From positions 9,925-42,999 of the forward strand of contig JAGRMU010000082.1 of NCBI GenBank assembly GCA_020441165.1: a DNA stretch of 33,075 bases, in the 5' to 3' direction. The stretch comes from Sedimentitalea sp. (GTDB taxonomy: Bacteria > Pseudomonadota > Alphaproteobacteria > Rhodobacterales > Rhodobacteraceae). This document shows positions 13,718-25,051 of this stretch, in pieces (positions within the stretch are counted from its first letter, which is position 1; every line of letters begins with the position of its first letter). The position numbers were made by a program, and so were the translations under genes. The notes beneath the pieces are model-generated. The model was not told the DNA's origin. It did no database searches and saw only the letters and a program-made list of their open reading frames with translations.

Positions 13718-13793
13718 GCCGCTGTAGCTCAGCTGGTAGAGCACGTCATTCGTAATGATGGGGTCGGGGGTTCGAGTCCCTTCAGCGGCACCA
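13718..13793 (+). tRNA. tRNA-Thr (anticodon CGU)
   Basis: 76 nt including encoded CCA. Acceptor stem GCCGCTG/CAGCGGC (13718-13724 with 13783-13789), D-arm GCTCAGCTGGTAGAGC, anticodon arm CGTCA-TTCGTAA-TGATG with CGT at 13751-13753, and T-arm with GGTTCGAGTCCC. The anticodon CGU reads ACG, a threonine codon. It is flanked by a perfect 9-nt inverted repeat (GAGAAGAAT at 13709-13717, ATTCTTCTC at 13793-13801) that would lengthen the acceptor stem in the precursor. Confidence 0.97.
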
Positions 13794-13993: not shown

Positions 13994-14029
13994 GAAAAAT
14001 ATCACTAGCAATCGCATTTGATATTTTGC
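13994..14029 (+). promoter_or_regulatory. Inverted repeat in the AT-rich leader of the peptide-transport operon
   Basis: GAAAAATATC (13994-14003) and GATATTTTGC (14020-14029) are near-perfect inverted copies, with a perfect 8-bp core AAAATATC/GATATTTT and a 16-bp spacer. They lie in the only AT-rich stretch upstream of the operon, about 40 bp before the ATG at 14067. This fits an operator or promoter region, plausibly bound by the operon's own RpiR regulator (18961). That link is inferred; a -35/-10 pair cannot be fixed with confidence. Confidence 0.45.
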
Positions 14030-14066
14030 TACCGTTTGTGCAATGATGCCAACGGGAGGACACAGG

Positions 14067-15563
14067 ATGAAACTACGCATGACACTGGCCGCGACGGCGG
14101 CGATGGCGGTGCTGGCCACGGGGCTCGCGGCCCAGGACACGATCCGCATCGCCTCGCCGAATCAGGTGACGGTGCTCGACCCGATCATCTCGGCGGCGGC
14201 GGGCAATATCGAGGCCTACGGGCAGCTCTACGCGCGGCTGCTGCGCAAGGACGCGGATGGCACGCTGCAGCCGGGCCTGGCGGAAAGCTGGACGATCTCG
14301 GACGACGGGCTGACCTACACGTTCAAGCTGCGCGAGGCGCAGTTCTCGGACGGCACCGAGATCACCGCCGAGGACGCGGCTTTCAGCCTCAACCGCGTCA
14401 GCAAGGACGAGAACTCGGCCTATCCGGCCGGCTTCGCCCCGGTCAAGGAATTCACCGCCCTCGACGACAAGACGCTACAGCTGACGCTGGAACATCCCAG
14501 CGCGCCGATGCTGTCCAACCTCGAGATCTTCAACGCGGGGATCGTCAGCAAGGACGATGTCGAGACGCGCGGCGAGGCGGCCTTCACCACCGACCCCGTC
14601 GCCTCTGGTCCCTACATGGTCAGGGAATGGAAACCGAACGACCGGCTGTCGCTGACCGCCAACCCGCATTTCTGGCGCGAGGGTCTGCCGAAGATCGCGA
14701 ATGTCGAACTGATCGAGGTCAGCGACGACAACGCCCGCGCCACCATGGCGATGGCGGGCGAGATCGACGTGAACCGGGGCGTGCCCTGGGCACAGGTCGC
14801 CGAGGTTGACGGCACCGAGGGCGTTTCGGTCCGGCTGGAACCCTCCACCGTGCTCTACCTGGTGATGCCCAACCACTCCAAGCCGCCCTTCGACAACCTG
14901 ACGGTGCGCAAGGCCGCCGCCATGGCGCTGAACCGCGAGGCGATCACCAAGGCGGTGACGCTGGGCAATGCGACGGTCGCCAATTCGACCCTGTCCAATG
15001 CGCTGAACTTCCATGATCCGAACGTCCAGCCTCCCGCCTACGACCCGGAAGGCGCGCGCAAGCTGCTGCAGGAGGCCGGGCTGGAAGGCACCGAGGTCAC
15101 GCTGATGATCACGCCCTCGGCCGAGCAGATCGCGACCCTGCTCAAGGCGCAGTGGGACGCGGTGGGCTTGCCCACGACGGTCGAGCGGGTCGATGCCGGC
15201 CTCTGGTGGTCCAAGCTGGCCGATGCCGACTACCAGGTCACCACCTCCTGGTACTACAACGAGACCGAGGATCCCGATCTGGCGGTTCGCTGGGCGCTTT
15301 GCGGCACCTGCGGCAGCGACTCCTACTACACCTTCTACAACAACGAGGAGGTCAACGCGCTGACCGACGCGGCGCTGCGCGAGCAGGACGAGGCGAAGCG
15401 CGCCGAACTCTACAGCCGCATCCAGCAGATCACCCTCGAGGATCTGGCGCAGATCCCGCTCTACTACTCGCCCTTCTCGAACGCCTATTCCGACCGGGTG
15501 AAGGGCCTGTCGCTGACCCCGTCGCTGCAGTGGACGCTGGAAGAGGCCGAGATCTCCGGCTGA
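14067..15563 (+). CDS. Periplasmic peptide-type substrate-binding protein (SBP family 5)
   Basis: 498 residues. First gene of the operon and ligand receptor of the importer. Signal peptide of about 22 residues (MKLRMTLAATAAMAVLATGL then AA) with cleavage before QDTIRI. Family features: DPIISAAAGNIEAYGQLYARLL, LQPGLAESWTISDDGLTYTF, and LREAQFSDGTEITAEDAAFS, typical of DppA/OppA-like binding proteins. Start at 14067 is supported by GGGAGGA (14054-14060) 6 nt upstream, although an in-frame ATG exists at 14043. The ligand cannot be read from the sequence; the two hydrolases in the operon suggest short peptides or amides with unusual residues. Confidence 0.92.
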   Translation: MKLRMTLAATAAMAVLATGLAAQDTIRIASPNQVTVLDPIISAAAGNIEAYGQLYARLLRKDADGTLQPGLAESWTISDDGLTYTFKLREAQFSDGTEITAEDAAFSLNRVSKDENSAYPAGFAPVKEFTALDDKTLQLTLEHPSAPMLSNLEIFNAGIVSKDDVETRGEAAFTTDPVASGPYMVREWKPNDRLSLTANPHFWREGLPKIANVELIEVSDDNARATMAMAGEIDVNRGVPWAQVAEVDGTEGVSVRLEPSTVLYLVMPNHSKPPFDNLTVRKAAAMALNREAITKAVTLGNATVANSTLSNALNFHDPNVQPPAYDPEGARKLLQEAGLEGTEVTLMITPSAEQIATLLKAQWDAVGLPTTVERVDAGLWWSKLADADYQVTTSWYYNETEDPDLAVRWALCGTCGSDSYYTFYNNEEVNALTDAALREQDEAKRAELYSRIQQITLEDLAQIPLYYSPFSNAYSDRVKGLSLTPSLQWTLEEAEISG

Positions 15564-15624
15564 CCGATCGAGGCGGCGCGGCCCGGCAACGTCCGGGGCC
15601 GCGCCCGCATCACGGAGTACCGCC

Positions 15625-16563
15625 TTGAAGACGCTGCGCTATATCCTGCTGCGCCTGTTGCAGGCGGTCCCTGTGCTGCTGGGCGTCAGCATCGTGACCT
15701 TCGCGCTGATGGTGGCGACGCCCGGCGATCCGATCCGCCTGCTGGTCGGCGACCGCGCCACGCCCGAGACCATCGCCCTGATCCGCGACCGCTACGGTCT
15801 CGACGACCCGATCCTGGCGCAATACGTGACCTATCTGAGGAACCTGCTGCAGGGCGATCTGGGCGCCTCGCTGCGCTACCGGGTGCCGGTCTCGCAGCTG
15901 ATCGCACAGCACTACCCGGTCACGCTGTTTCTGGTGATCTACACCATCGTTCTGACCCTGCCGCCGGTGATCGCGCTGTCGGTCTGGTCGGCCCGCCGCC
16001 AGAGCGGCGTGGCGGACCAGGTGATCCGGCTGCTCGGCGTCGTCGGGCTGGCAGTGCCGGTGTTCTGGCTGGCGCTCCTTTTCGCGCGCTTCTTCGGGGT
16101 GACGCTCGGCTGGTTTCCGGTCAGCGGCTTCGGCAACAGCTTCGGCGAGCACCTGCTGCACCTCTTCCTGCCGGCGCTCTCGACGATGATCTGGGTGGTT
16201 CCGATCCTGGTGCGCAACCTGCGCTCGGCGCTGCTGGACGAGATGAACCGCGACTATGTGCTGACGGGCCTGTCGAAGGGGCTGGGCGAGCGGCAGGTCT
16301 TCCGCACCCATGTCTTTCCCAACTCGATCCTGCCGACGCTGAACCTCTTCGCGGTGATCGTCGCCTACCTTCTGGGCGGATCGGTGATCGTCGAGACCGT
16401 CTACGCGGTACCCGGCATGGGCAAACTGATGGTCGAGAGCATCCTGGCCCGTGACTATTTCGTGGTGCAGGGCGCCACGCTGGTCTTCGCGTTGACGACG
16501 ATCCTGGTGATGCTGGCGGTTGACCTGCTGTCGACCGCGATCGACCCGAGGCTCTCGCCATGA
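15625..16563 (+). CDS. ABC transporter permease (DppB type), TTG start
   Basis: 312 residues. DppB/OppB-like membrane permease: N-terminal LRYILLRLLQAVPVLLGVS, the periplasmic signature YGLDDPILAQYVTYL, six hydrophobic helices, and the cytoplasmic EAA-type loop (NRDYVLTGLSKGLGERQVF). The start is a TTG at 15625 preceded by GGAG (15614-15617) with 7-nt spacing; no ATG lies nearby that keeps the first helix, so the TTG is well supported. It follows the binding-protein gene after 61 bp and ends in an ATGA overlap with the second permease. Confidence 0.92.
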   Translation: MKTLRYILLRLLQAVPVLLGVSIVTFALMVATPGDPIRLLVGDRATPETIALIRDRYGLDDPILAQYVTYLRNLLQGDLGASLRYRVPVSQLIAQHYPVTLFLVIYTIVLTLPPVIALSVWSARRQSGVADQVIRLLGVVGLAVPVFWLALLFARFFGVTLGWFPVSGFGNSFGEHLLHLFLPALSTMIWVVPILVRNLRSALLDEMNRDYVLTGLSKGLGERQVFRTHVFPNSILPTLNLFAVIVAYLLGGSVIVETVYAVPGMGKLMVESILARDYFVVQGATLVFALTTILVMLAVDLLSTAIDPRLSP

Positions 16564-17363
16564 GGGTCTCGCCGATGTTCTTGACCGGCTTCTCCCTGGT
16601 GCTGGTCTGGGGACTTATCGCGCTGGCGGCGCCGCTGCTGGCCACCCATGACCCCTATGCCATCGACTTCGAGGCGATCCTGCAGGCACCGGGCCCCGCG
16701 CACTGGTTCGGAACCGACAATGTGGGGCGCGATACCTACAGCCGCGTCGTCTTCGGCGCGCGCCTCGCGCTCTATATCGGGCTGCTGGGGGTGATCGCGC
16801 CGATGCTGATCGGCATGACCATCGGGCTGCTGGCCGGGTATTTCGGCGGCTGGGTGGACACGCTGGCGATGCGGCTTCTGGACATCACCGTGCCCTTCCC
16901 CTTCTTCGTGCTGGTGCTGGCCATCGTCGCGGTGCTGGGGCCGGGGATCGAGAACTACTTCATCGCTCTCGCCCTTGTCGGCTGGGTCGGCTACGCGCGG
17001 CTGGCGCGGGCCGAGGCCGTCGTGCTGCGCCAGGCCGAGTTCGTGCTGGCCGCGCGCACCATGGGCTTTTCCCACGGCTACATCCTGCTGCGGCACGTGC
17101 TGCCGAACGCGCTCTCGCCCATCGTCGTCTACATGATGACCGACGTGACGCTGGTCATCCTCTTCGGCGCCGCGCTGGGGTTCCTGGGCATGGGCGTCTC
17201 GCCCCCCGCCGCGGAATGGGGCGTGATGATCGCCGAGGGGCAGTCCTACATCGCCACCGCCTGGTGGATCAGCTTCTTTCCGGGCCTCGCGATGGTCGCG
17301 CTCGGCGTCGGTTTCGCGCTGATCGGCGACGGGCTGGCCCGCATGCTGAGGATCGAGCGATGA
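16560..17363 (+). CDS. ABC transporter permease (DppC type)
   Basis: 267 residues. Second permease of the importer: HWFGTDNVGRDTYSRVVFGA near the N-terminus is the DppC/OppC hallmark, and the EAA-type loop is seen at VLAARTMGFSHGYILLRHVL. About five or six hydrophobic helices. Starts in the ATGA at 16560-16563 and ends in an ATGA overlap with the ATPase gene, so permeases and ATPase are translationally coupled. Slightly short for the family because the cytoplasmic N-terminus is reduced. Confidence 0.93.
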   Translation: MRVSPMFLTGFSLVLVWGLIALAAPLLATHDPYAIDFEAILQAPGPAHWFGTDNVGRDTYSRVVFGARLALYIGLLGVIAPMLIGMTIGLLAGYFGGWVDTLAMRLLDITVPFPFFVLVLAIVAVLGPGIENYFIALALVGWVGYARLARAEAVVLRQAEFVLAARTMGFSHGYILLRHVLPNALSPIVVYMMTDVTLVILFGAALGFLGMGVSPPAAEWGVMIAEGQSYIATAWWISFFPGLAMVALGVGFALIGDGLARMLRIER

Positions 17364-18964
17364 GCGCCCTCTTGCGCGTGCAGGGCCTGTCGGTGCGCTT
17401 CGGCAGCACCGTGGCCGTCGATGACGTCTCGTTCGAGCTGGAGCGCGGCGCGGCGCTGGGGATCGTCGGCGAGAGCGGCTCGGGCAAGTCGGTCACCTGC
17501 CGCGCCCTGCTGCGCCTGCTGCCGCGCTCGGCCCGCATCGACGGGCGCGCGGCGTTCGAGGGGCGCGACCTGCTGGCCCTGCCCGAGCCCGAGCTGAACC
17601 GGATCCGCGGCAAGCGCATTGCGATGATCTTCCAGACCCCGGCCTCGCATCTCGATCCGCTGATGCGGATCGGCGACCAGGTGGCCGAAACCCTGCGCAA
17701 GCACACCGAGATGCGCGGCCGGGCCCTGCGCGAGGAGGTGCTGCGCCTTCTCGACGTGGTGCGCATCCCCGACCCGGACCGCTGGGCGCGCGCCTATCCG
17801 CACCAGCTGTCGGGCGGCATGAAGCAGCGCGCGATGATCGCCGGGGCGCTGGCCTGCCAGCCCGACCTGCTGCTGGCGGACGAGCCGACCACGGCGCTGG
17901 ATGCCACCGTGCAGAAAAGCGTTCTCGAGCTTCTGGCGCAGCTGCGGCGCGAGCGGAACCTGTCGATGATCTTCGTCAGCCACGACCTCGGGGCCGTGGC
18001 GCAGGTCTGCGACGACCTGCTGGTGATGCGCCGCGCCCGGCTGGTCGAGAGCGGCCCGGTGCGGCGCGTCGTTGCCGCGCCCCGGCACGCCTATACCGCG
18101 CAGCTGATCGCCTCGCATCCCGACCGGCTGGAGGCCGCCCCGCCCGCCGCGCTGTCGGGCGCGCCGCCGCTGGTCGAGGCCAAGGGTGTGCAGGTCCGCT
18201 ATGGCAGCCGCACGCTGGCCGATCTGATCGCCGGGCGCGAGGGCGGGTTCATCGCGGTCGAGGAGGCCGATTTCTCCGTCAGCCCCGGCGAGAGCCTCGG
18301 CATCGTCGGCGAGAGCGGCTCGGGCAAGTCGACGCTGGCGCGCGCGCTGGTCGGGCTGGTGCGGCCCCGCAAAGGCACGCTGGTCTTCGACGGCGCGCCG
18401 GCCGATCCCGCCGGCCCCGGCCGCATCGCCCTGCTGCGCGAGATGCAGCTGGTCTATCAGCACCCCTACGAGGCGCTCAGCCCGCGCCTGACCGTGCACG
18501 CGGCCATCGCCGAGCCGCTGCGCCGCCATCGCCTCTGCCCGCGCGGCGCGGTGGACGAACGGGTGCGCGAGCTGATGGCGCAGGTGGACCTGGCGCCGGA
18601 GCTGGCCGCGCGCCTGCCCGGGCAGCTCTCCGGCGGACAGTGCCAGCGCGTCGCCATCGCCCGCGCCCTGGCCTTCGATCCGCGGGTGCTGATCGCCGAC
18701 GAGGTGACCTCGGCCCTCGACGTCACCCTGCAGGCGCAGGTGCTGGGCCTTCTGTCGCGGCTGCAGCGCGAGCGGGGGCTGACGATGATCTTCATCAGTC
18801 ACGACCTCTCGCTGATCCGCCGGCTGTGCAACTCGGTGATCGTGATGCGCCGCGGCCGGATCGTCGAGGCCGGTGCCACGGCGGCGGTGTTCGACGCCCC
18901 GCGCGAGGACTACACGCGCGAGTTGATCGCGGCGATGCCGCATCTGGAAGGAAGCGCCGCATGA
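17360..18964 (+). CDS. Fused double ABC ATPase (DppD-DppF in one chain)
   Basis: 534 residues with two complete nucleotide-binding domains, replacing the usual separate DppD and DppF. Domain 1: Walker A GESGSGKS (37-44), signature LSGGMKQRA, Walker B LLLADEP. Domain 2: Walker A GESGSGKS (317-324), signature LSGGQCQRV, Walker B VLIADEV, where Val replaces the usual Pro. It drives ATP-dependent import with the two permeases. Both Walker A regions share an identical 30-nt stretch (17462-17491 and 18302-18331). The gene overlaps both neighbours by ATGA. Confidence 0.95.
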
Positions 18965-19875
18965 CAAGCGCGAGCGCCCGCGACCGCATCGCCGCGGCCA
19001 GCAACCTCTCGAAGGGCGAGAGCGAGGTGGCGCTGTGGGTGACGCGGCATTTCGAGAGCCTGCCCTTCGTCAACGCCGCCGATCTTGCCGCCGGCGCCGG
19101 GGTCAGCGAGATGACGGTCAGCCGCTTCGTGCGGCGGCTGGGCTACGAGAACTTCAAGAGCTTCAAGGCCGAGGTCAGCGCCGAGTATCGCGGCGACGGC
19201 CGGACAGCCGGCAAGTCCCGCGCCCTGCGCGTCGCGATTCCCAAGACCACGGGGCGCGAGCTGGACGATCTGCTGCGGCGCGAGCTGGAGGCCATCGCCG
19301 AGGTCTACGAGCTGGCCGAGAGCGATCAGTGGCGCGCGGCGCTCGACGTGATGGAGGCCGCGCGCTTCGTGAACGTGACCGGTTTCCAGGGCGTGAAGGG
19401 CATGGCGATGGATTTCGCGACGCGCCTGAAATACGCCCGGCCGGGGGTGCGGTTCGCCGACGGACGCAGCGGCAACTGGTCGGAGATCTTCATCGAGGAT
19501 CCCGCAAAATCCTGCCTCGTGATGATCGATGTCGTCCCCTACGCCCACGAGGCGGTCAAGATCGCCGAGCTCTGCCTGCGCCGCAAGCTGCCGCTGATCA
19601 TCGTGACCGACCGCTACAGCGCCTGGCCGCGCCAGTACACGCCGCATGTGCTGACCGTGGCCACCGATACCAGCGCGTTCCTCGACAGCACCGCGGGCCT
19701 TGCGGCGCTGCTGGGCCTGATGCTCAACGGGATCACCGCGCGGCGCGGGCGCGAAGCGCGCAAGCGGCTGCGCGCCATGCGCGAGCTGGCGCAGCATTTC
19801 GATCCCTTCTCCTACCAGCCGGGCAGCAAGAGCCGCCCGATCCCGCCCACCGACAGCAAGGAGGATGCGCCATGA
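18961..19875 (+). CDS. MurR/RpiR-family transcriptional regulator with SIS domain
   Basis: 304 residues. N-terminal helix-turn-helix of the RpiR type (residues ~1-80, including AADLAAGAGVSEMTVSRFVR and LGYENFKSFK), then a linker and a SIS domain (~125-260) that in this family senses phosphosugars or related ligands. C-terminal extension rich in Arg/Pro/Ser. Encoded inside the transport operon with ATGA overlaps on both sides, so it is most simply its own regulator. A candidate operator lies upstream of the first gene (13994-14029). Confidence 0.92.
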   Translation: MTSASARDRIAAASNLSKGESEVALWVTRHFESLPFVNAADLAAGAGVSEMTVSRFVRRLGYENFKSFKAEVSAEYRGDGRTAGKSRALRVAIPKTTGRELDDLLRRELEAIAEVYELAESDQWRAALDVMEAARFVNVTGFQGVKGMAMDFATRLKYARPGVRFADGRSGNWSEIFIEDPAKSCLVMIDVVPYAHEAVKIAELCLRRKLPLIIVTDRYSAWPRQYTPHVLTVATDTSAFLDSTAGLAALLGLMLNGITARRGREARKRLRAMRELAQHFDPFSYQPGSKSRPIPPTDSKEDAP

Positions 19876-20978
19876 CGTCTCGCCCCCGCGCCCGCGATCT
19901 CGGCCTGCAGTTCGGCGGCACGCCGGGCGCCTGGAACGCCATCACCGACGTGCCCGGCCTGACGGTCGGGTTCGCCACGGTGATCGAGGAGGCCCGGCCG
20001 GGCGGGCACCAGGGCCTGTGCACCGGCGTCACCGCCATCGTGCCGCGCGGGACCAGCGGCGCGCTCACCCCGGTCTGGGCGGGGGTGCATTCCTTCAACG
20101 GCAATGGCGAGCTGACCGGATCGCACCACATTGCCGATCTCGGCTGGTTCCTCGGGCCGGTGATGCTGACCAATTCGCACAGCGTCGGCATCGTCAGCCA
20201 TGCCGTCGTCGGCTGGATGATCGACCGGCACCGCGAGGTCTTCGCGCGCGATCACATGTGGTGCCTGCCGGTGGTCGCCGAGACCTATGACGGGGTGCTG
20301 AGCGACATCAACGCGCGCGGCGTGACCGAGGCGCATGCCCGCGCCGCGCTGGACGCCGCCGCCTCCGGCCCCCTCGCCGAGGGCAATGTCGGCGGCGGCA
20401 CCGGCATGATCGCCTACGAGTTCAAGGGCGGCACCGGCACCGCCTCGCGCCGGATCGAGGTCGCGGGGCAGGCCTATGCGCTCGGGGTTCTGGTGCAGGC
20501 CAATCATGGCAACCGCGACGCGCTGGAGATCTCGGGCGTACCGGTCGGGCGCGAGATGCGCGAGGATCTGCTCTTCGAGCGCGAGCAGGGGTCGATCATC
20601 GTGGTGGTCGCCACCGATGCGCCGCTGCTGCCGCACCAGCTGAACCGCCTCGCGCGCCGCGGCGCCATCGGGATCGGGCGCAACGGCACTTGCGGCGGGC
20701 ACAGCTCGGGCGACATCTTCCTGGCGTTCAGCACCGCCAACCCGCAGGAGAACCCCTGGCACGCGCCGGACGTGATGACGCTGGCGACGCTCAAGGACAC
20801 GCATCTCGACGCCTTCTACACCGCCGCCGTGCAGGCCATCGAGGAGGCGGTGGTCAACGCCATGATCGCCGCCGAGGACCGCATCGCGGTCAAGCCCGCG
20901 GGCCACCGGGTGCGGGCCATCGACCACGACCGGCTGCGCGCGCTTCTGCACGACATGGCGGGGCGCGAACGGAGATGA
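19872..20978 (+). CDS. P1 family peptidase (DmpA/BapA-like aminopeptidase)
   Basis: 368 residues. Family of L-aminopeptidase D-Ala-esterase/amidase DmpA and beta-aminopeptidases, which self-cleave to expose an N-terminal Ser nucleophile. N-terminal motif GTPGAWNAITDVPGLTVG is characteristic. GNVGGGTGMIAYEFKGG and the segment CGGHSSGDIFLAFSTANP are the conserved cores; Ser279 of SGD is the expected nucleophile and cleavage site. The residue before it is Ser, where I recall Gly or Asn in characterised members. No signal peptide, so it should act in the cytoplasm on imported peptides. Starts in an ATGA overlap with the regulator and ends overlapping the C45 gene. Confidence 0.92.
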   Translation: MTSRPRARDLGLQFGGTPGAWNAITDVPGLTVGFATVIEEARPGGHQGLCTGVTAIVPRGTSGALTPVWAGVHSFNGNGELTGSHHIADLGWFLGPVMLTNSHSVGIVSHAVVGWMIDRHREVFARDHMWCLPVVAETYDGVLSDINARGVTEAHARAALDAAASGPLAEGNVGGGTGMIAYEFKGGTGTASRRIEVAGQAYALGVLVQANHGNRDALEISGVPVGREMREDLLFEREQGSIIVVVATDAPLLPHQLNRLARRGAIGIGRNGTCGGHSSGDIFLAFSTANPQENPWHAPDVMTLATLKDTHLDAFYTAAVQAIEEAVVNAMIAAEDRIAVKPAGHRVRAIDHDRLRALLHDMAGRERR

Positions 20979-22063
20979 GGATCGTCGACTGCACCGGCGC
21001 GCCGCGCGCCCGCGGCCGGGCGCATGGCGAGACGCTGCGACGGATGATCGCCGACGCGCTGGACCGCTGGGCCGAGGCGACGCTGCGCGGTCTTCCGGAG
21101 CGCGCGGAGGGCGGGATCGACGCCTATTGCGCGCGGTTTCTGGGCGAGACCGGGCTGCTGGAGACCGCGCGGCGGATCACTCCCGACCTCCATGACGAGA
21201 TGGCGGGCATCGCCGAGGGGGCGGGCCAGCCGCCGGACCGGATCGCCGCCTACAACCTGATGGACGAGCAATGGTGGTTCGACGCGCGCCGCGATGCCCC
21301 GCCGCCGGGATGCAGCCTGATCGCCCTGCCCGTCCCGGGCGGTCACCTGCTGGCGCAGAACATGGACCTGCCCGGGCACATGGACGGATCGCAGGTGGCG
21401 CTGCGCCTCGCGGGGCCGGACATGCCGGAAACCGTGGTGCTGAGCGCCGCCGGGCTGATCGGCCTGACCGGCGCCAATGCAGCGGGCATCGCCATCGGCG
21501 TGAACACGCTGCTCATGCTGGGCCACGACCGGGGCGGCCTGCCGGTGGCCTTCGCCCTGCGCCACGCCCTCGCTGCGCGCAGCGGCGAGGCGGCGCGCGC
21601 CCGGCTCACCGGCGCCCGCCATGCCAGCGGCCAGCACTACGCCATCGTCACGCGCGGCGGCATCGCGTCGCTGGAGTGCTCGGCGGGCGGATCCGCCGGG
21701 CTGGCGCCCTCGCCCGCCGGCCGGCTGGTGCATACCAATCACCCGCTGGCCAGCACGGATATCGACGCCGAGGCCGAGGCGCGGCTCGACAAGGCGGGGT
21801 TCAACCGCAGCTCGCACCGCCGGCTCGACTGGCTGGCGGAGCGGCAGGCGGGGCTCGCGGGCGCCGAGGAGGTGCAGGCCCTCTTCGACGACGCTGAGGC
21901 GCCGCTCTGCCTGCGCGCGGCGAGCCATGGCGGATCGAGCACCTTCGCCTCGGTCCTCTACGAGATGACCGCCAGCCCGCGTATCCGGATGCGCTCCGGC
22001 CGCCCCGGCGGGGCAGGCTGGCGGGAGATCGGCTTTGCCGGCGAGGGCTCCGCGTCGAGTTGA
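20975..22063 (+). CDS. C45-family autoproteolytic acyltransferase/hydrolase
   Basis: 362 residues. Related to isopenicillin-N acyltransferase-type Ntn hydrolases: GAPRARGRAHGE at the N-terminus, EMAGIAEGAG, then PPPGCSLIAL with Cys113 as the expected nucleophile after self-cleavage between Gly112 and Cys113. Further family segments are LLAQNMDLP, GLIGLTGANAAGIAIGVNTL, and LVHTNHPL. These enzymes hydrolyse or transfer amide-linked acyl groups; the substrate here is unknown. No signal peptide. Last gene of the operon, joined by ATGA to the P1 peptidase. Confidence 0.9.
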   Translation: MRIVDCTGAPRARGRAHGETLRRMIADALDRWAEATLRGLPERAEGGIDAYCARFLGETGLLETARRITPDLHDEMAGIAEGAGQPPDRIAAYNLMDEQWWFDARRDAPPPGCSLIALPVPGGHLLAQNMDLPGHMDGSQVALRLAGPDMPETVVLSAAGLIGLTGANAAGIAIGVNTLLMLGHDRGGLPVAFALRHALAARSGEAARARLTGARHASGQHYAIVTRGGIASLECSAGGSAGLAPSPAGRLVHTNHPLASTDIDAEAEARLDKAGFNRSSHRRLDWLAERQAGLAGAEEVQALFDDAEAPLCLRAASHGGSSTFASVLYEMTASPRIRMRSGRPGGAGWREIGFAGEGSASS

Positions 22064-22281: not shown

Positions 22282-23829
22282 ATGGATCAGTTTCGTTTCG
22301 CAGAGTTCATCCTGGACCGCCGCAAGCGGGCGCTGCTGCGCGGGGCCGAGACCGTCCCGATCGGGGCCCGCGCCTTCGATCTGCTGGAGGCCCTTCTGGT
22401 GCACCGGGACAGGGTCGTGCCGCGCGACGAGATCATGCAGATCGTCTGGCCCGGCACGGTGGTGGGCGAGAACAACCTGAACGTCCAGGTCGCCAACCTG
22501 CGCCGTCTGCTCGGCGCGGACGCCATCGTCACGGTGCCGGGTCGCGGGCTGCATTTCGCGCGCGAGGTCCTGCCGGAGGGACCGGCGCTCGGCTTGCCGG
22601 ACAGGCCCTCGGTGGTCGTGCTGCCTTTCGACCGGCTTGGCGGCGATCCCGAGCTCGACTGGCTCGCCGACGGGTTCGTCGAGGACATCACCACCGAGCT
22701 CTCGCGCTTTCGCGACCTCTTCGTGGTCGCCCGCAATTCGGCCTTCGCCTATCGTGAAGCCCCGCGCGATCTGCGGACGGTCGCGCGCGAGCTGGGCGTG
22801 GGCTATGTGGTGGAGGGCAGCGTCCGGGCGCGGGCGAACCGCGTTCGGGTCACCGCGCAGCTGATCGACGCGGCCCATGGCGGCCATGTCTGGGCCGAGA
22901 ATTTCGACCGCGACATGGCGGACCATTTCGAGACCCAGGCGCGCGTGGCCCGCGCCGTCGTCACCTGCCTCTCGCCGCAGATCGACCGCAACGAGGCCGA
23001 CCGGATCCGGGTGCTCGCCCCCGAGGATCTGACCGCCCACGGCCTGGCGCAGCGCGGGTGGTTCTTGATCTCCTCCGGCGAGATGCTCTATGACCCGGAG
23101 CTTCGCGACCAGGCCGAGGACCTGGCGCGGCAGGCCCTGGCGCGGAACGCGGAGTCGGCCCTGGCGTGGCGGGTCCTGGCCTGGGTTGCCTGGTGGAACG
23201 TCTATCACGGCACCACCGACAGCGTCCCCGACACGCTTTCGGCGGGGATCGACGCGGCGACCCGCGCCATCGCCATCGACAAGACCGACCACCAGGCGCG
23301 GCGGCTCAGGGCGCAACTGCACTTCATGAAAGACGACGTCGCGGCGGGCCTGCCCGAGATGCGGCAGGCCCACGAGATGAACCCGAACTGCGCGGTCACG
23401 CTGTGCTGGCTGGGCCTCTACGAGGCCATCAACGGCAGCGCGGAGATCGGCGTGCCGCTCGTCGAGGCGGGCCTGCGGCGAAGCCCGCGCGATCCGGCCC
23501 GCGGCTCGATGCTCTGCGCGCTGGGGTTCGCAGAATTCGCGGCGCGCGATTACGCGGCGGCGGCCGACGCCGCCGAGGCCGCGCTCGCCGAGTCCGCGAG
23601 CAGCACCACGCCGCTGGTCCTCGCCACCATCGCCTATGTCGGACAGGGCCGGATCGACAAGGCCACCGAGACGTTCCAGCGGGTCGAGCGCATGGCGCCC
23701 AAGCTGGTCGGGGCGCGCCTGTCCGGCCGCTGGCTCAGCACGAACCCCGATTACCTGTCGCGCGCGCATACCTTCTTCCGGATCGCCGCCGGGCTCGTCC
23801 CGCCCGAGGCCGCCGACGCACTGCGCTGA
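22282..23829 (+). CDS. Winged-helix (OmpR/CadC-type) regulator with TolB-like and TPR regions
   Basis: 515 residues. N-terminal winged helix (~1-95: FDLLEALLVHRDRVVPRDEI, NNLNVQVANLRRLLG, IVTVPGRGLHFA) of the trans_reg_C type without a receiver domain. Then a TolB N-terminal-like/adenylate-cyclase-associated region (~105-215: PSVVVLPFDRLGGDPELDW, ELGVGYVVEGSVR, QLIDAAHGGHVWAENFDRD), then alpha-helical tetratricopeptide-like repeats to the C-terminus (~260-500). No transmembrane segment, unlike CadC itself. The start lacks an obvious Shine-Dalgarno. Targets are unknown; the following genes with the repeated 39-bp element are candidates. Confidence 0.9.
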   Translation: MDQFRFAEFILDRRKRALLRGAETVPIGARAFDLLEALLVHRDRVVPRDEIMQIVWPGTVVGENNLNVQVANLRRLLGADAIVTVPGRGLHFAREVLPEGPALGLPDRPSVVVLPFDRLGGDPELDWLADGFVEDITTELSRFRDLFVVARNSAFAYREAPRDLRTVARELGVGYVVEGSVRARANRVRVTAQLIDAAHGGHVWAENFDRDMADHFETQARVARAVVTCLSPQIDRNEADRIRVLAPEDLTAHGLAQRGWFLISSGEMLYDPELRDQAEDLARQALARNAESALAWRVLAWVAWWNVYHGTTDSVPDTLSAGIDAATRAIAIDKTDHQARRLRAQLHFMKDDVAAGLPEMRQAHEMNPNCAVTLCWLGLYEAINGSAEIGVPLVEAGLRRSPRDPARGSMLCALGFAEFAARDYAAAADAAEAALAESASSTTPLVLATIAYVGQGRIDKATETFQRVERMAPKLVGARLSGRWLSTNPDYLSRAHTFFRIAAGLVPPEAADALR

Positions 23830-24327: not shown

Positions 24328-24366
24328 GATCTTTTTGGCGCGCCGTCTTGCCGCGCACGATCGCGG
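24328..24366 (+). promoter_or_regulatory. 39-bp repeated element, copy B (upstream of the sulfotransferase gene)
   Basis: Begins GATCTTTTT and ends CGATCGCGG; ungapped partner of copy A (28/39 identical). It lies about 50 bp before the sulfotransferase start, at a distance suited to a promoter or activator site. TTGGAT at 24325-24330 would serve as a -35. Confidence 0.5.
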
Positions 24367-24415
24367 AGACTGCGCTATCGATACGGCGCCGGGCATTTCG
24401 GACAGGAGAGAAATC

Positions 24416-25051
24416 ATGTCGCTTGAAATCGTCGGCTCGGGTTTCGGCCGGACGGGCACGATGTCGACCAAGATGGCGCTCGAAGAGCTGGGCTTCGGGC
24501 CATGTCATCACATGAAGGAGGTGATGGGCGACACCGAACAGCCGCCGTTCTGGACGGCCCGCGCGGCCGGCGAGCCGGTCGACTGGCATGGCGTCTTCGC
24601 CAGCTACACCGCGCAGGTCGACTTTCCCGGCGCCGCGGTCTGGCCGGAACTGGTCGACGCCTTTCCCGAGGCGAAGGTGATCCATACCGAGCGCCCGGAA
24701 GACGACTGGTGGGCCAGCTACTCCACGACGATCGGCAAGTTCTGGATGCACTACCGAGCGCTTCCGCTTCCCCCGGAGATCGTCGAGCTGTTCGAAACCA
24801 TGGAAAAGCTCCTCGCGACGGGGGTGTTCGGCGGCTCGGACCGCGAGACCTGCATTGCCGCCTATCGGCGCAACAACGCGCTGGTCCGGGAGACCGTGCC
24901 GGACGAAAAGCTGCTGATCTTCACGCCCTCGGACGGCTGGGAGCCGTTGTGCCGGTTTCTCGACGTCCCGGTTCCGGATGGAGATTTCCCGCGCAGCAAT
25001 GCGCGCGACGAGTTCTGGGCGCTTTTCGGTGGCGAGCCCAAGGTGGCCTGA
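24416..25051 (+). CDS. Sulfotransferase family protein
   Basis: 211 residues. Starts MSLEIVGSGFGRTGTMSTK: the GFGRTGTMSTK loop (9-19) is the 5'-phosphosulfate-binding P-loop-like motif of PAPS-dependent sulfotransferases. Further family features are LEELGFGPCHHM, AKVIHTERPEDDWWASY (the 3'-phosphate-binding region with Arg and Ser), and WEPLCRFLDVPVPDGDFPRSN near the C-terminus. Cytoplasmic, no signal peptide. AGGAGAG (24404-24410) is 5 nt before the ATG. The acceptor is unknown; many bacterial members of this subgroup have no assigned substrate. Confidence 0.9.
   Translation: MSLEIVGSGFGRTGTMSTKMALEELGFGPCHHMKEVMGDTEQPPFWTARAAGEPVDWHGVFASYTAQVDFPGAAVWPELVDAFPEAKVIHTERPEDDWWASYSTTIGKFWMHYRALPLPPEIVELFETMEKLLATGVFGGSDRETCIAAYRRNNALVRETVPDEKLLIFTPSDGWEPLCRFLDVPVPDGDFPRSNARDEFWALFGGEPKVA

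Follow-up and report, generated by a model that had tools for sequence, protein, structure and literature searches.

Known systems resembling the operon

In Bacillus subtilis, the dppABCDE operon combines an M55 D-aminopeptidase with a dipeptide importer. The Ddp system, which consists of ddpX, coding for a D-Ala-D-Ala dipeptidase, and the ddpABCDF importer, occurs in a form that is linked to a SapR-like regulator of the RpiR family, and the Pip/Aap system of Pseudomonas GM79 and PDC86 unites an importer with two cytoplasmic peptidases and the LuxR-type regulator PipR. Here we describe a seven-gene operon at positions 14067-22063 of a 33,075-nucleotide stretch of Sedimentitalea sp. DNA (contig JAGRMU010000082.1; the whole stretch is hereafter called the window), which encodes a peptide-type ATP-binding cassette importer, a MurR/RpiR-family regulator and two N-terminal nucleophile (Ntn) hydrolases, one of the DmpA type (family S58/P1; hereafter P1) and one of family C45. 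With a probability of roughly 60%, we consider this to be a locally regulated operon for the import of small peptides or amides whose amino end is free and their hydrolysis in the cytoplasm, the likeliest substrates being D-Ala-, beta- or other non-standard aminoacyl amides.

Each of the known systems shares part of this architecture. The regulator-linked form of Ddp likewise has a peptide-type importer, a dedicated amide hydrolase and an RpiR protein of the same clade, whereas the window has two Ntn hydrolases in place of DdpX, a fused ATPase and a binding protein from a different clade; a window permease scores 251 bits against the DdpC equivalog NF007376 and does not reach its cut-off of 434. 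The resemblance to dppABCDE of B. subtilis lies in the combination of an importer and a D-residue-directed aminopeptidase in one operon, and an M55 gene flanks the copy of our operon in Sulfitobacter mediterraneus, but the window operon has another regulator and other hydrolases. Pip/Aap is similar in having an importer with two cytoplasmic peptidases, and its binding protein AapF is, by sequence score, the best match of solved structure to that of the window. It differs in that alpha/beta-type proline iminopeptidases and PipR stand where the window has Ntn hydrolases and an RpiR protein. Finally, plasmid operons of Rhizobium leguminosarum, Ensifer and Shinella belong to the same importer clade (52-56% binding-protein identity) and the same RpiR clade, and two of the three share the operator-like site with the window operon. 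These rhizobial operons carry an amidase and a PF00144 serine hydrolase instead of P1, and C45 is present in one only, at another position. Our literature search found no description of the exact seven-gene set.

Organization and conservation of the operon

All seven genes lie on the forward strand, in the order binding protein, two permeases, fused ATPase, regulator, P1 and C45, and at the coordinates assigned to them in a first-pass annotation made from the sequence alone. That annotation had described an operon held together mostly by ATGA overlaps. All its genes are indeed present, and five of the six junctions are 4-nucleotide ATGA overlaps (at 16560, 17360, 18961, 19872 and 20975). The sixth junction is the only intergenic gap, 61 nucleotides between the genes for the binding protein and permease 1 (15564..15624, forward strand), in which a strong hairpin is predicted (RNA fold of 15560-15628, −36.5 kcal/mol, z −2.3). 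Permease 1 starts with TTG at 15625, and GTG or TTG is possible as its start at the same place in all five related clusters. Such a hairpin gap with a TTG start would be a common way to raise the output of binding protein above that of permease.

A profile of C45 gave 29 loci with one genome per species (related loci carry L numbers). By tblastn with all seven proteins, the complete set with unchanged gene order was recovered in Sedimentitalea nanhaiensis (L044), in Sulfitobacter delicatus (L046, which coincides with L027), in a Pseudorhodobacter metagenome-assembled genome (L043) and in an uncultured member of the Rhodobacteraceae (L045); a plasmid of S. mediterraneus (L021) has it as well. 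The full set is therefore known from six genomes including the window, that is, from at least five other Rhodobacteraceae, with tblastn identities of 84-91% for the permeases, 77-82% for P1 and 60-67% for C45. Since the same genes and order recur in five other clusters, the set is not a product of chance. A lack of conservation elsewhere had been named as grounds for abandoning the original proposal, and the genome-context check suggested with it has instead yielded these five genomes. Besides the window's own genome, only one of the 295 genomes in our sample of the order has the full set, which indicates a rare accessory operon. The S. mediterraneus block also holds peptidases of families M55 (the D-aminopeptidase family) and M42; the window operon contains no DdpX, M55 or M42, the latter two being found only at the S. 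mediterraneus copy.

Two predicted self-processing hydrolases

P1 (19872..20978, forward strand; PF03576, 357 bits) has no signal peptide as judged by eye, and its Peptidase_S58 domain is near full length (positions 1-298 of 307). DmpA of Ochrobactrum anthropi (1b65) matches over its full length at 435 bits, with the nucleophile and neighbouring motifs conserved, followed by the D-aminopeptidase entry 5tzb (282 bits), BapA (3n2w, 274 bits) and ThnT (26 bits). These scores place an enzyme previously described as DmpA/BapA-like on the DmpA side. DmpA is both an L-aminopeptidase and a D-Ala-esterase/amidase. By sequence comparison, self-cleavage is predicted between Gly240 and Ser241 (Ser codon 20592-20594), because the window motif GSIIVVVATD corresponds to the published beta-chain N-terminus of autoprocessed LUCA-DmpA, SIIVVIATDA (PMC9570944). 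The same published start eliminated the Ser of an SGD motif as nucleophile in favour of GS-IIVV. An assignment of P1 as a nylonase was also discarded, as there was no NylC match and DmpA was far ahead. DmpA-type enzymes take beta-alanyl donors (PMC9235088, PMC9570944). A second S58 gene is present in the window's own genome, divergent to another SBP_bac_5 importer (L040 1602-7653).

The second hydrolase (20975..22063, forward strand), also lacking a signal peptide as judged by eye, reaches 177.5 bits against NF040521 (cut-off 85), in agreement with its original assignment to the C45, isopenicillin-N-acyltransferase-like family. Its predicted nucleophile is Cys113 (codon 21311-21313), with Gly112-Cys113 and the GCS motif invariant in the alignment of relatives. 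The C45 profile also matches the fungal acyltransferase (2x1d/2x1e), Cys113 aligning with the Cys of 2x1d that is Ala in the 2x1c variant. At L053 (3949-4981) a frameshifted C45 gene, approximately 70% identical to that of the window and with no importer or P1 beside it, has the look of a decayed remnant.

Importer, regulator and putative operator

The importer comprises four forward-strand genes. The SBP_bac_5 substrate-binding protein (14067..15563; PF00496, 305 bits) has a Sec-type signal peptide as judged by eye, permease 1 (15625..16563; PF00528, 119 bits) is of the OppB/DppB type, permease 2 (16560..17363; PF00528, 96 bits) of the OppC/DppC type, and the fused double ATPase (17360..18964; two ABC_tran stretches) of the DppD-DppF type, with a YejF/GsiA-like best NCBIfam match that stays under the cut-off. 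As the binding protein carries a signal sequence and neither hydrolase does, cleavage probably takes place in the cytoplasm after import. Glu399 of the window protein aligns with the DppA region that holds the amino group of the ligand, where we take Asp408 to be the contacting residue and have placed it on the alignment accordingly. All 13 proteins of the binding-protein clade have the acidic residue, and this conservation supports a small ligand whose amino end is free. For members of this importer clade, our literature search returned no report of a ligand or an activity.

The regulator (18961..19875, forward strand; HTH_6, 34 bits against a cut-off of 28) falls into a SapR-like subgroup of the MurR/RpiR family in our tree. 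Its best curated match is SapR (NF046014, 126 bits; HexR, 39 bits), which is under the SapR cut-off of 500. The protein is probably a switch that senses imported molecules. Upstream of the operon we noted a putative operator half-site, GATATTTTGCTACC (14020..14033, forward strand), 47 bp before the start of the binding-protein gene. In the inverted repeat AAAATATCA-N14-TGATATTTT it is the right arm. The window contains one match of the pattern GWTAKTTTNNTANC, which is also the only one in the 3.87-Mb genome (684 contigs, 78% complete) and is located at the operon promoter; a control pattern has two sites. More generally, GWTAKTTTnnTAnC occurs 28-65 bp upstream of the window's importer operon and of those at seven other loci, and 105-135 bp upstream in two rhizobial ones, and is absent from the upstream regions compared for the S. 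mediterraneus plasmid and for L164. Five of these operons have an inverted partner arm some 14-16 bp further upstream, and it is perfect in the window and in L045. Because the motif was written post hoc from these sequences, its match in the source operons is by construction. Among 22 held-out loci of the regulator clade it was found twice, compared to no site in 653 kb of background loci; the two sites lie between an amidase gene and a binding-protein gene (L153) and just before a polyamine-type importer operon (L137). Since most held-out loci lack the motif, the putative operator marks the importer clade and not the entire regulator clade.

An importer and regulator that associate with different hydrolases

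One binding-protein clade (bootstrap/SH-like approximate likelihood ratio test (SH-aLRT) 100/99) unites the window-type operons with Paracoccus pantotrophus (which has P1), the plasmids of Rhizobium, Ensifer and Shinella, and an additional alphaproteobacterium. A single regulator clade, separate from generic RpiR proteins, likewise comprises the RpiR proteins of these operons together with those of others (SH-aLRT 99 in a quick tree made without bootstrap). Within the importer clade, which was drawn from plasmids and samples, the accompanying hydrolases are DmpA with C45, DmpA alone, or an amidase with a PF00144 serine hydrolase, once together with C45; counts of rhizobial plasmids are not independent, since plasmid collections hold many near-identical records. 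The rhizobial amidase is nearest to NylA (253 bits, next 158). The serine hydrolase is nearest to NylB (196 bits) and keeps its Ser-x-x-Lys motif. Where the regulator clade occurs with other importers, its neighbours include DdpX, M55 and M81 proteins and, in Variovorax, a DmpA-type and a NylC-like enzyme. For all these Nyl-like enzymes, the likeness in sequence is not evidence of activity on nylon oligomers. In Burkholderia ubonensis and Pseudomonas amygdali, ddpX and a D,D-dipeptide-type importer adjoin the clade regulators, and in Sinorhizobium meliloti the regulator adjoins an M55 D-aminopeptidase gene, with a D-serine ammonia-lyase gene 2-4 kb further.

Judged by these sequence relationships, the importer clade together with the SapR-like RpiR clade is a cassette that takes different amide hydrolases. 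The first-pass annotation had overlooked this exchange, which includes NylA-, NylB- and NylC-like enzymes, as well as the shared putative operator, and was incomplete in this respect. The occurrence of NylA- and NylB-like enzymes with the importer clade in rhizobia, and of NylC-like enzymes with the regulator clade in Variovorax, suggests a more far-reaching view, which we put forward only tentatively: the importer and SapR-like regulator may serve as a plug-in cassette for naturally occurring amides of omega-, beta- or D-amino acids, and its members may be where the nylon-oligomer hydrolase families have their place in nature. If so, the ligand of one binding protein could reveal the natural job and the natural substrates of Nyl-family enzymes, which are familiar chiefly through nylon by-products.

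Several individual loci deserve mention. On the R. leguminosarum plasmid (L134 6941-10550), the genes for the NylA-like amidase, RpiR protein and NylB-like hydrolase adjoin the importer genes, and C45 is at the opposite end. The NylC-like S58 enzymes of the Variovorax plasmids (reverse strand; L140 1066-2052, L139 1070-2053) score 251 bits against NylC structures, and their gene belongs to an importer operon that also holds M81 and runs divergently from the DmpA-type and RpiR genes. The S. meliloti pSymA locus (L163 8506-12861) also holds ornithine cyclodeaminase, and in Rhizobium sp. T1470 (L168 5115-8313) the clade RpiR gene follows panD (beta-alanine synthesis), an ATP-grasp gene and an alanine racemase fragment. 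In P. pantotrophus (L132 8977-16501), about 2 kb separate the DmpA-type gene from a gene cluster for quinohemoprotein amine dehydrogenase.

Substrate class and alternative explanations

In the function that we favour, the periplasmic binding protein would capture a small ligand whose amino end is free, import into the cytoplasm would proceed through the Dpp-type transporter and its fused ATPase, and the SapR-like RpiR protein would control the operon from the operator just upstream. The DmpA-type enzyme would then take off the N-terminal residue, and the C45 enzyme may cut another amide, either in this ligand or in one related to it. D-Ala or other non-standard aminoacyl amides are suggested by the M55 gene at the S. 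mediterraneus copy, by DdpX and M55 beside related regulators, and by the sapR mutant of Burkholderia pseudomallei, in which expression of the neighbouring genes for a D-Ala-D-Ala dipeptidase and a dipeptide importer is altered (PMC9884982). These associations fit the D-residue and beta-amino acid peptides that were originally among the proposed substrates, and peptidoglycan-derived D-Ala peptides or beta-alanyl amides would be examples of the most likely class. Some observations weigh against this interpretation. The closest solved relative of the binding protein, AapF (7kz8), was crystallised with HEHEAA, an ethanolamine derivative and not a dipeptide. In Thioclava the neighbour of the clade regulator is an amino acid importer that lacks a peptide hydrolase, and several other clade regulators adjoin M81 proteins of unclear substrate. 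Two more Rhodobacteraceae, both from the order sample (L141 and L142), have the first six genes without C45, so that C45 is not essential to the core function, and no extra hydrolase was present among the scanned flanking genes of these two operons. Moreover, ordinary L-Ala peptides are also cleaved by DmpA.

This last property speaks for the most probable alternative, ordinary dipeptide scavenging, in which common L-peptides would be imported, P1 would act as an L-Ala aminopeptidase, and C45 would uncap N-acyl groups or be a passenger. The importer components lie in the broad Dpp/Opp/Nik range and, the ATPase aside, the curated equivalog cut-offs are not reached. Nevertheless, we regard this explanation as unlikely, because the operon has a rare accessory distribution and a dedicated regulator, and because the hydrolase partners in the clades are NylA-, NylB-, M55- or DdpX-like and not general peptidases.

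Somewhat less probable still is uptake of a signal as in Pip/Aap, where an algal or plant effector would be imported, the regulator would respond, and breakdown of the effector by the two hydrolases would provide negative feedback. Among binding proteins of solved structure, AapF comes far ahead of the next (299 bits against 175), and import by Aap in Pseudomonas GM79 supplies a regulator whose response is dampened by two peptidases (PMC4981722). The window, however, has no LuxR-type PipR, and AapA and PipA are annotated as proline iminopeptidases and not as S58 or C45 enzymes, for which reason AapA was rejected as a counterpart of P1. The restriction of the putative operator to the window operon, in a genome that is 78% complete, means that no wider regulon is visible, which also argues against signal uptake.

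It is very improbable that C45 has a separate function and merely sits on the same transcript. The two operons lacking it and the presence of relatives with 40-54% identity apart from a window-type importer would fit such an independent role, but the gene overlaps that of P1 by ATGA in the window, occupies an identical place in each of the six full clusters, and in 9 of the 13 C45 regions of the order sample shares the region with an SBP_bac_5 importer. Equally remote is detoxification of beta-lactam-related compounds or N-acyl amides with C45 as acylase, for although the C45 family includes the fungal penicillin acyltransferase and P1 weakly matches ThnT of thienamycin synthesis, this match of 26 bits compares with 435 bits to DmpA, and the seven-gene blocks contain no beta-lactamase, biosynthetic or resistance gene. 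Of the first-pass interpretation, the joint occurrence of an importer, two self-cleaving Ntn hydrolases and one regulator is thus retained, and the beta-lactam-related and N-acyl amino acid substrates are dropped, as no neighbour or family match speaks for them.

This conserved, uncharacterised operon offers several handles on its substrate, namely its soluble binding protein, the one putative operator and two enzymes that can be assayed. Identification of the ligand would also explain where C45 hydrolases of unknown role act.

Surroundings of the operon in the window

Directly upstream of the operon lies a tRNA-Thr(CGT) gene (13718-13793); apart from tRNA, Rfam detected no RNA element ahead of the operon. 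In view of the patchy distribution of the operon and its plasmid-borne copy elsewhere, this tRNA gene may mark its insertion point. Downstream, the window encodes a winged-helix/TPR regulator (22282-23829) and a sulfotransferase-fold protein (24335-25051).

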